Of a stretch of DNA of 47,497 nt, positions 13,507 to 27,592 are shown one piece after another. How positions within the stretch are numbered: position 1 is the first letter of the stretch; every line of letters starts with the position of its first letter. The notes under the pieces were generated by a model. It worked only from the letters and a program-made list of their open reading frames with translations, had not been told where the DNA came from and did no database searches. The position numbers and the translations under genes are program-made. The DNA is from a virus, in IMG/VR virus record IMGVR_UViG_3300047475_000019, positions 1 through 47,497 of that record. One strand, given 5' to 3'.

Positions 13507-14512
13507 ATCTAAATTCCTTTTTTGCACATTCATCTAAGATGGCCATAACATCTTTAGTGAAATATTTTTTTGGGTCATTCAATATAGTTTTACCATATTG
13601 TTTTGAACCGTCTGGTAATTCATACCTTGTTGAAACTTTTTTGAATACTTTATATTTTTCTGCAAGTTCAAGTAATCCATAATATCTATCAAGACCTTTA
13701 TTATATGTTAGTCTAACATCTACCATTTTGTTTTCAATGGTAAGTCTTGATTTAAAGTTTTTACAATGTATAATATTACCTACAACTTCTGTTCCTTCTT
13801 TTTCTTTTCTTTTAGAAAGATATACAATAGAAGAAGCTGCATATTTTAATCCAGAACCACCACCCATTTCTTTTGTTGGAAACATAGAACCAACAACATC
13901 ATATGTGTGATTCGTTACAACCATAGGTACTTTTGCTTTACCAAGTTTTAAAGTCAACACTCTAAATGCAGCTTTAAGAACTTGAGCACGAGTCATATCT
14001 CTTGTTTCTTTTCCCTCAGCAGTATCTTCAACTTCTTTTGTTGTTGATAACATACCAAGTGAATCTAATGCAAGAAATAATGGTCTACGAATAGATTCTT
14101 CTTGATTAATATAACTATCTAGAACTTTCAATGATTGAGTTCTAAATTCTTGTACTGTTGTTACTGGAAGTATAACCATTCTTGATGGGTCAATACCTCT
14201 ATCAATAATCATTTGTTTAGTAATCGCACTTTCACTTTCAAAGTATATAACACCACTCTCTGGATTTTTGTCTAGAAAGTTTTTACACATACCCATCAGA
14301 AAAAATGTTTTACCAGTTGCACTTTCACCAGCGATTGCAGTAATCTTATTTGCTGGAAGTCCACCATTTATTGAACCAGATAATAATGCATTTAAAGCAT
14401 ATGACCCAGTATCAATAAATTCATCTACATCACCAGCTCCAACTCCGTCTGAAACTAAAGATGCATATTCGTTACCAGTTGTTTTGATAACTTCTTTTAA
14501 AAAATCAGGCAT
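13472..14512 (-). CDS. uvsX: UvsX, RecA-like recombinase
   Basis: This 346-residue strand-exchange protein forms filaments on single-stranded DNA. Walker A is GESATGKT (about residues 43-50, after NKITAIA) and Walker B is [11 protein letters not shown]. The [12 protein letters not shown] and [11 protein letters not shown] segments correspond to the RecA-fold DNA-binding and L2 regions. It is somewhat shorter than T4 UvsX, as is usual in marine relatives. AAGGAG precedes the ATG, and a promoter lies at 14559-14531. It heads the operon UvsX - 131 aa - gp41 - 76 aa - oxygenase. UvsY and UvsW are also in the window. Confidence 0.93.
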
Positions 14513-26951: not shown

Positions 26952-27380
26952 TTATTTTACTTCAATCGTTTGAGGTTTTTTGTGGTCAGGCACAATTCTT
27001 TCTAATGCAATGTATAACATTCCATTTTCCATTTTTGCACCTTTTACTTTCATCTCATCTGATAAAGTAAAACTTCTTTTGAAACTTTTGTGAGAAATAC
27101 CTCTGTGTATTAAAGTATTCTCATTTGTATCACCTTCTATTTTTTTAGATGAGATACTTAAAGTTCCTTCTTTTAGTTCAATATCAATGTCTTTTTTGGA
27201 ATAACCAGCCAAGGCCATCTCAATTTGATAGTTGTAGTCATCATTTTTGACTATGTTATATGGTGGGAATCCACCACTTGTTGTATGAAAGTCAGTATCA
27301 AAAAGTCTATCAAATAGACTATCAAAACCAACTGTATACGGTGTTAACCTATTACGGTCTAATGTTGCTAAAGTATTCAT
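26952..27380 (-). CDS. Small heat-shock protein Hsp20
   Basis: This 142-residue alpha-crystallin-domain chaperone begins with the IbpA-like LTPYTVGFDSLFDRLFD. It then has PPYNIVKNDDYNYQIEMALA (start of the domain), GYSKKDIDIELKEGTLSI, and the ending RSFTLSDEMKVKGAKMENGMLYIAL plus ERIVPD. Phage Hsp20 is common in marine myophages and may protect folding during head assembly or heat stress. The gene is monocistronic, followed by a hairpin. Its 5' leader holds three hairpins, the last of which sequesters the AAGGAG site with a ROSE-type UUGCU strand. Temperature control of translation is therefore likely. Confidence 0.93.
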   Translation of the reverse strand: MNTLATLDRNRLTPYTVGFDSLFDRLFDTDFHTTSGGFPPYNIVKNDDYNYQIEMALAGYSKKDIDIELKEGTLSISSKKIEGDTNENTLIHRGISHKSFKRSFTLSDEMKVKGAKMENGMLYIALERIVPDHKKPQTIEVK

Positions 27381-27384
27381 ATCT

Positions 27385-27462
27385 ATCTCCTTCTTTAAGC
27401 AAGATTAATATTGAGTCCCAAAAAGGCAACTCATAAAATTGGGGTTTTTTATAGAGAACCCC
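27385..27462 (-). ncRNA. Candidate ROSE-like RNA thermometer in hsp20 5'UTR
   Basis: On the minus-strand transcript three consecutive hairpins precede the ATG: 27462-27441 (GGGGTT/AACCCC), 27433-27412 (TGAGT..CC/GG..ACTCA with a 2-nt bulge) and 27405-27385. In the last, ATCTT-G-CTT pairs with AAG-GAGAT around an AAAG loop, leaving one bulged G and burying the whole AAGGAG site. UUGCU opposite the Shine-Dalgarno with a bulged G is the hallmark of ROSE elements, which control small heat-shock genes in proteobacteria. Fold drawn by hand, no energy calculation. Confidence 0.65.
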
Positions 27463-27473
27463 ATAACTCTATT

Positions 27474-27481
27474 TATTTATG
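27474..27481 (-). promoter_or_regulatory. Late-type element (CATAAATA) before the hsp20 leader
   Basis: CATAAATA fits the relaxed NATAAATA late octamer of marine T4-like phages. Initiation about 6-7 nt on would begin the RNA just before the first leader hairpin. Confidence 0.4.
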
Positions 27482-27544
27482 ACACTCTAGGGTAGGTATA
27501 CTATATTGTGTCATTGAGAAGTCTTATGAACGGCTTCTCATCTA

Positions 27545-27552
27545 TATTTATA
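27545..27552 (-). promoter_or_regulatory. Late-type TATAAATA with overlapping sigma70-like box
   Basis: TATAAATA (27552-27545) overlaps a possible TTGACT-17-TATATA promoter whose -35 is at about 27577-27572. Either would transcribe a longer hsp20 leader of over 150 nt. Confidence 0.4.
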
Positions 27553-27592
27553 TATTATTACACTACCATAGAGTCAATAATTTGTCAAGTCC

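Follow-up and report, generated by a model that had tools for sequence, protein, structure and literature searches.

The question raised by this locus is whether a phage small heat-shock gene is preceded by a temperature sensor of the kind used by bacteria. ROSE elements have been described as always residing on bacterial small heat-shock genes (PMC4166951), and the phage thermometers that preceded the sigma70-gene case of PMC11182007 are those of lambda cIII and SPbeta blyA. The window (i.e., the whole stretch of 47,497 nucleotides analyzed here) is a virus record of 47.5 kb whose T4-like replication genes encode a gp45 clamp, a gp44 clamp loader, a gp46-type SMC/AAA ATPase, and a DNA polymerase. 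It carries an hsp20 gene (Table 1), which is one of the core genes of T4-like cyanophages (PMC9004378); the Hsp20 homologues in Pelagibacter and Methylophilales phages are 45 to 49% identical to the window protein, and those in cyanophages are less similar. A sequence-only reading had placed a ROSE-like thermometer of three hairpins in front of a small heat-shock gene. The sequence and coordinates of that leader (27385-27467, minus strand) agree with ours, and the reading frame downstream is indeed Hsp20. Judging from sequence and modeled structure, we consider the leader likely to be an RNA thermometer of the ROSE type, related to the short two-hairpin kind of Pseudomonas ibpA but borne by a phage.

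RNAfold returned the three proposed hairpins (hairpin A, HP1, and HP2). The last had been described as pairing the Shine-Dalgarno (SD) sequence in 8 bp, with a single bulged G and a loop of 4 nt, and this core, AUCUU[G]CUU-AAAG-AAGGAGAU in the minimum free energy (MFE) structure (bulged G in brackets), was present at the temperatures shown. The outer AUAUU/GAUAU stem of HP2 belongs to the window lineage and was not seen in most relatives in the pair listing. The three-hairpin description holds as a fold but not as a conserved unit: hairpin A probably belongs outside the conserved element, because TATAAATA separates it from HP1 in L014 and L022, which are close relatives. HTVC008M and Mosig likewise have a TATAAATA-like site between these two hairpins.

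Table 1. Features of the hsp20 locus in the window
Feature	Position	Strand	Basis
hsp20 CDS	26952..27380	-	142 aa, alpha-crystallin domain; PF00011, E 5.8e-17
Extended HP2, outer stem AUAUU/GAUAU	27379..27411	-	RNAfold MFE; stem extends to the start-codon A and U
HP2, Shine-Dalgarno hairpin	27385..27405	-	RNAfold MFE; bulged-G SD hairpin in 134/146 leaders versus 7/130 control genes
Shine-Dalgarno AAGGAG, paired within HP2	27387..27392	-	Sequence
UUGCU anti-SD ROSE motif, bulged G at 27400	27398..27402	-	Fits U(U/C)GCU of PMC3669281 and PMC11182007
HP1, stem-U[G]CC-loop-GGG-stem	27412..27433	-	Bulged-G core as in HP2; covariation
Hairpin A, GGGGUU...AACCCC	27440..27463	-	RNAfold MFE; variable upstream hairpin
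CATAAATA, putative T4-type late promoter element	27474..27481	-	Sequence; positional support from relatives

To compare the leader with known RNA families, 401 nt were scanned (cmscan) against all 4,227 Rfam families. ROSE (RF00435) was listed first and aligned in place over its full length (1-94) at 27463-27374 on the minus strand, with a score of 26.2 bits (E 0.055) that does not reach the gathering cutoff of 45. ROSE_3 (RF02523) was not listed for the window at E <= 10, but it matched the hsp20 leaders of Melnitz-3 (E 0.002) and C48C1 (E 0.15) exactly in place. It also matched 5 of another 20 loci, at E values from 1e-4 to 0.19, and gave an E value of 7.7e-6 in a small search. No relative reached the ROSE_3 cutoff of 43 (best score, 39.9 bits). 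At gathering scores, Rfam gave no match anywhere in the window, and an RF00435 search of the window's record and of one alphaproteobacterial MAG, in which a leader of this type is present, returned nothing even at loose thresholds, such searches being too insensitive to judge absence. By Rfam's own thresholds, then, the phage leader belongs to neither RF00435 nor RF02523. The ROSE_3 consensus nonetheless has its HP1 core (AUGCC..GGGU) and its HP2 core (CUcGCU..AGgAG) in common with the phage leaders, and reciprocally, a covariance model built from phage leaders (R1, described below) matched the Pseudomonas-type ibpA leader in OQ572409 (E 9e-4). The elements of ROSE architecture, namely, U(U/C)GCU with a bulged G on the SD sequence, two to four hairpins, and a small heat-shock gene, are each present in the window. 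With the two conserved hairpins, the in-place ROSE and ROSE_3 matches, the reciprocal hit, and the compensatory changes reported below, the description of the leader as ROSE-like is well founded.

The closest known counterpart is the short ROSE-like thermometer of Pseudomonas ibpA. In that two-hairpin leader, hairpin II melts and hairpin I stays closed, as established by probing, toeprinting, and reporters, and the leader stays shut after deletion of the bulged G (Krajewski et al., PMC3669281). Both leaders have two hairpins, an HP1 in which a bulged G is followed by CC/GG, and U(U/C)GCU opposite the SD sequence; both lie directly upstream of a small heat-shock gene, and the models match in both directions. 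In layout, the phage leader equals this experimentally established Pseudomonas thermometer (PMC3669281). The phage version differs in that it is AU-richer, has a putative late promoter rather than a sigma32 promoter, is found on dnaK as well, and scores below the family cutoff. The rhizobial heat-shock ROSE (RF00435) aligns with the window over its full length, SD hairpin included, but its long middle hairpin is short in the window, and the score is 26.2 bits against a cutoff of 45. The phage thermometers of lambda cIII, SPbeta blyA (fourU), and the sigma70 gene (fourU) (PMC11182007) are likewise structure-sensing phage mRNA leaders, but they differ in structure and gene, and none is ROSE-type or located on a chaperone gene.

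A leader that binds some other ligand or protein, e.g., a manA motif or a RegA target, was also considered. The genes whose potential 5' UTRs contain manA RNAs in marine metagenomes and cyanophages include those of ibpA chaperones (PMC2864571), which places the motif before ibpA in marine phage-type sequences, and regA is located just upstream of hsp20 in S-PM2 and S-CRM01. The manA model, however, gave no match in the 32 loci scanned (E <= 5), none at the window leader (E <= 10), and none elsewhere in the window at the gathering cutoff, and the best matches of the leader are ROSE and ROSE_3. We think it very improbable that the leader is of this other kind.

Conservation of the element was examined in phage hsp20 and dnaK loci gathered by protein and, separately, with a DNA pattern of the SD hairpin that was blind to gene identity. 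The gene-blind pattern found 121 sites, with an hsp20 recognized by BLAST directly downstream in 104 and dnaK in four; a few further sites precede hsp20 genes cut by a contig end. In the protein-gathered sets, 134 of 146 distinct phage hsp20 or dnaK leaders had a bulged-G hairpin covering the SD sequence, compared with 7 of 130 SD-bearing open reading frames on the same contigs. This count comes from a strict test with a control set; a looser hairpin parser, which scored 302/302, was too permissive. Two hairpins recur: an HP1 of variable sequence whose stem closes on (U/C)[G]C(C/U)-loop-(G/A)GG and an HP2 of the form CU(U/C)[G]CUU-loop-AAGGAG. Because mixed leaders aligned with MAFFT go out of register at HP1 and the SD sequence, R1 was built from a gap-free seed of seven phage leaders. 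It scored 60 bits on the window at 27433-27385 and matched the leader in 89 of 98 hsp20 loci (one of the matched loci is cut by a contig end, and three of the loci lie in the seed), with one weak off-target match in 353 kb. In the dnaK set, R1 matched most loci twice, ahead of dnaK and again ahead of the hsp20 downstream of it.

The sequence-only reading had called for compensatory changes in related phages, and these were found in both hairpins. Among 82 distinct aligned hsp20 leaders, 99% of the cells pair, and HP1 showed changes on both sides at 7 of its 8 pairs, with a covariation score of 0.489, compared with 0.149 after shuffling and 0.09 or less in slid controls. This alignment had been fitted to the structure, and we therefore added a test in which the null was re-optimized by swapping HP1 arms among leaders: an HP1 stem of 5 bp was present in 90% of the real leaders and in 6.9% of the swapped-arm chimeras. 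HP2 alone shows little covariation because its core pairs are nearly invariant. Some lineages re-pair HP2 (AAC/GUU, UUC/GAA, or AUC/GAU) and keep the bulged G, which is retained in nearly all relatives; A stands in its place in a few dnaK leaders (L301, L314, L323, L326, and L333, in which the anti-SD is CUUACUU).

Among isolates, R1 matched the hsp20 leaders of S-PM2, S-B64, S-BM3, S-SSM4, S-RIM12, P-TIM40, syn9, S-CREM1, Syn1, S-CRM01, AG-345-P14, Mosig, Melnitz-3, C48C1, and HTVC103P; the matches in HTVC008M and HTVC115P were weak, and in S-H38 the element was recognized by eye. With R1, the element was not found in the Vibrio phages PWH3a-P1 and IBT_VpB-34, and it was not found in contigs L245, L247, and L249, where another reading frame abuts hsp20. 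A search of genome contigs with a single Hsp20 protein yielded one relative. Within the class of one alphaproteobacterial genome, R1 matched 12 of 190 genomes at E <= 0.01, and not all of these matches precede hsp20; in two alphaproteobacterial families with small genomes (0.9 to 2.0 Mb), 29 of 32 and 36 of 40 genomes matched at E <= 0.05. Of 37 bacterial loci examined, 30 have hsp20 directly downstream. The element is not peculiar to the window phage: it is general among the related phages examined, and small-genome alphaproteobacteria have it too. In one alphaproteobacterial MAG (L352/L356; G001:C8, ~13546-13822), a CUUGCUUAACGAAAGGAG leader was seen on both hsp20 and a divergently oriented CBS-like gene. 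Two records labeled as phages, MG065686 (L369, Campylobacter phage A18a) and OQ572409 (L370, Pseudomonas phage Y7), have GC-rich, bacterial-looking ibp genes with ROSE-type leaders; both are labeled "UNVERIFIED" and may hold bacterial DNA.

The phage and bacterial loci differ in what lies upstream of the shared leader. The late-type promoter element proposed in the sequence-only reading, which is the sole TATAAATA-like site in the window, lies upstream of hairpin A, which thus stands between the site and HP1. As a putative element, it gains support from its position in relatives: NATAAATA occurs within 32 nt 5' of HP1 in 80 of 115 distinct phage leaders, compared with 3% in shuffles, and its distance to HP1 in phages is mostly 3 to 5 nt. 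NATAAATA was absent from 29 of 30 bacterial leaders, the exception being L375, a locus that looks phage derived, and a sigma32-like CTTGAA..CCCCAC was found upstream of the leader in 9 of 29 bacterial loci. Thus, phages and bacteria have the leader in common but differ in the promoter. In the window, the region upstream of the promoter (27483-27575) contains AT-rich inverted repeats, including GAGAAG..CTTCTC, with a weak mir-2985 match (E 0.063); these repeats are possibly the terminator of the upstream DUF932 gene.

The short promoter-to-HP1 distance bears on another reading, in which the leader is a constitutive attenuator or an mRNA-stabilizing hairpin, with HP1 shielding the 5' end and HP2 simply lowering translation without any sensing. 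Late transcripts would begin at or close to HP1, and HP2 is weak in many relatives by nearest-neighbor folding. A generic attenuator would not be expected to show a near-exclusive link to heat-shock chaperone genes or the bulged-G core of ROSE, and we consider this reading improbable.

The Hsp20 proteins themselves may suggest how the leader came to be shared. The window Hsp20 groups with one small-genome alphaproteobacterial family (SH-aLRT 89; branch not starred), with up to 58% identity to the Hsp20s of one such family, and well-supported branches of the Hsp20 tree force at least two host-phage changes. The tree, built on 148 columns, is poorly resolved, and we therefore make no claim on the direction or number of transfers. 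The sequences suggest that hsp20 was exchanged together with its leader between host and phage: since small-genome alphaproteobacteria have a matching hsp20 leader, with HP1 and HP2 as in the phages but with other promoters upstream, gene and leader probably moved together and the promoter was probably replaced. Because the leader matches bacterial thermometer hairpins and precedes nearly all of the related hsp20 and dnaK genes examined, it is very probable that these phages adopted a temperature sensor of bacteria. If so, phages would keep a posttranscriptional sensor while swapping its promoter.

Folding at several temperatures, as the sequence-only reading had proposed, gave a divided result, with strong predicted occlusion of the SD sequence in the window and none for the phage leaders as a group. 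At 10, 20, 37, and 42°C, the unpaired fraction of the SD sequence in a local fold of the window was 0.03, 0.07, 0.28, and 0.40, respectively, an opening curve shaped like that of the Pseudomonas-type ibpA control (0.02, 0.05, 0.18, and 0.24 at the same temperatures). The rise was smaller for the longer leader from the predicted start (0.16 at 37°C). Across 146 phage leaders folded at 20°C with nearest-neighbor parameters, SD accessibility was no lower than that of other genes (medians, 0.50 and 0.50; P value = 0.58), and the leaders of Melnitz-3, HTVC008M, and syn9 fold poorly. ROSE pairing includes noncanonical pairs (PMC11182007), and because the energy model omits these, the group result weakens the thermometer reading but does not exclude it.

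For the window, a thermometer would work as follows. The mRNA would be made from the putative T4-type late promoter, where we infer that the transcript starts. At cool temperatures, HP2 would pair UUGCU, by way of the bulged G, with the SD sequence and block ribosome binding, and HP1, with a bulged-G core like that of HP2, would act as its stable folding partner. Warming in the cell would melt HP2 and relieve the repression, such that Hsp20 would be made late in infection, presumably to the benefit of the phage. A role of this Hsp20 in head assembly is speculation.

The chief rival of this mechanism, or its partner, is autorepression, in which the leader would mainly bind the phage's own Hsp20. 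Free Hsp20 would then block translation until aggregated clients titrate it away, and temperature would act indirectly or jointly with melting. The model is E. coli IbpA, which represses its own translation via its 5' UTR and whose Arg93 is required for RNA binding but hardly for chaperoning, with R93K abolishing repression (PMC10474464). The likeness extends to a small heat-shock gene with a thermometer leader and to the critical residue in most phage Hsp20s: among the Hsp20s tested, Arg occupies the position equivalent to IbpA R93 in 117 of 120 from phages and in 32 of 32 from bacteria. In addition, the (U/C)[G]CY/RGG core common to HP1 and HP2 would suit a pair of binding sites. The window lineage, however, departs from E. 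coli IbpA at precisely this position. Residue 98 of the window Hsp20 is Lys, shared among those tested only with L001-L003 and phage C48C1, and the corresponding change kills repression in E. coli. Moreover, dnaK has a matching leader, which would require regulation in trans. We regard autorepression as the main function of the leader as unlikely, and direct melting of a ROSE-type hairpin is the reading that we prefer.

A broader proposal, which we put forward tentatively and find somewhat doubtful, is that T4-like marine and freshwater phages possess a thermometer regulon of hsp20 and dnaK, each with its own ROSE-type leader, with a late promoter in place of a heat-shock promoter and with Hsp20 feedback in most of them. 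If true, the late supply of chaperones for virion assembly would be tied to temperature and protein damage.

The architecture itself is known; what is new is the phage carrier, the extra target gene dnaK, and the promoter context. No earlier report of a ROSE-type leader in phages was found in the open literature searched. The ROSE-type leader is general on hsp20 of the T4-like aquatic phages examined, including the isolates S-PM2, syn9, P-TIM40, Melnitz-3, and Mosig, and dnaK genes of related phages have it as well. How phage hsp20 is regulated can now be tested directly by asking whether its translation tracks temperature during infection.

Several other features were observed in the phage contigs. 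Clusters of dnaK and hsp20 are present in many of them (L067:775-3509, L152, and L263-L342), with a separate ROSE-type leader for each gene; in L067, clpS comes next after the cluster. An additional GGGC..GCCC hairpin separates HP1 from HP2 in some dnaK leaders. A similar two-hairpin leader was seen in L060 (2534-2803, minus strand) before a 90-aa Ala/Lys-rich protein that has no Pfam match and is perhaps phasin-like. In L226, a glutamine riboswitch (RF01739; 64.9 bits, above the cutoff) is located at 1977-2029, shortly downstream of the hsp20 gene of that phage contig.
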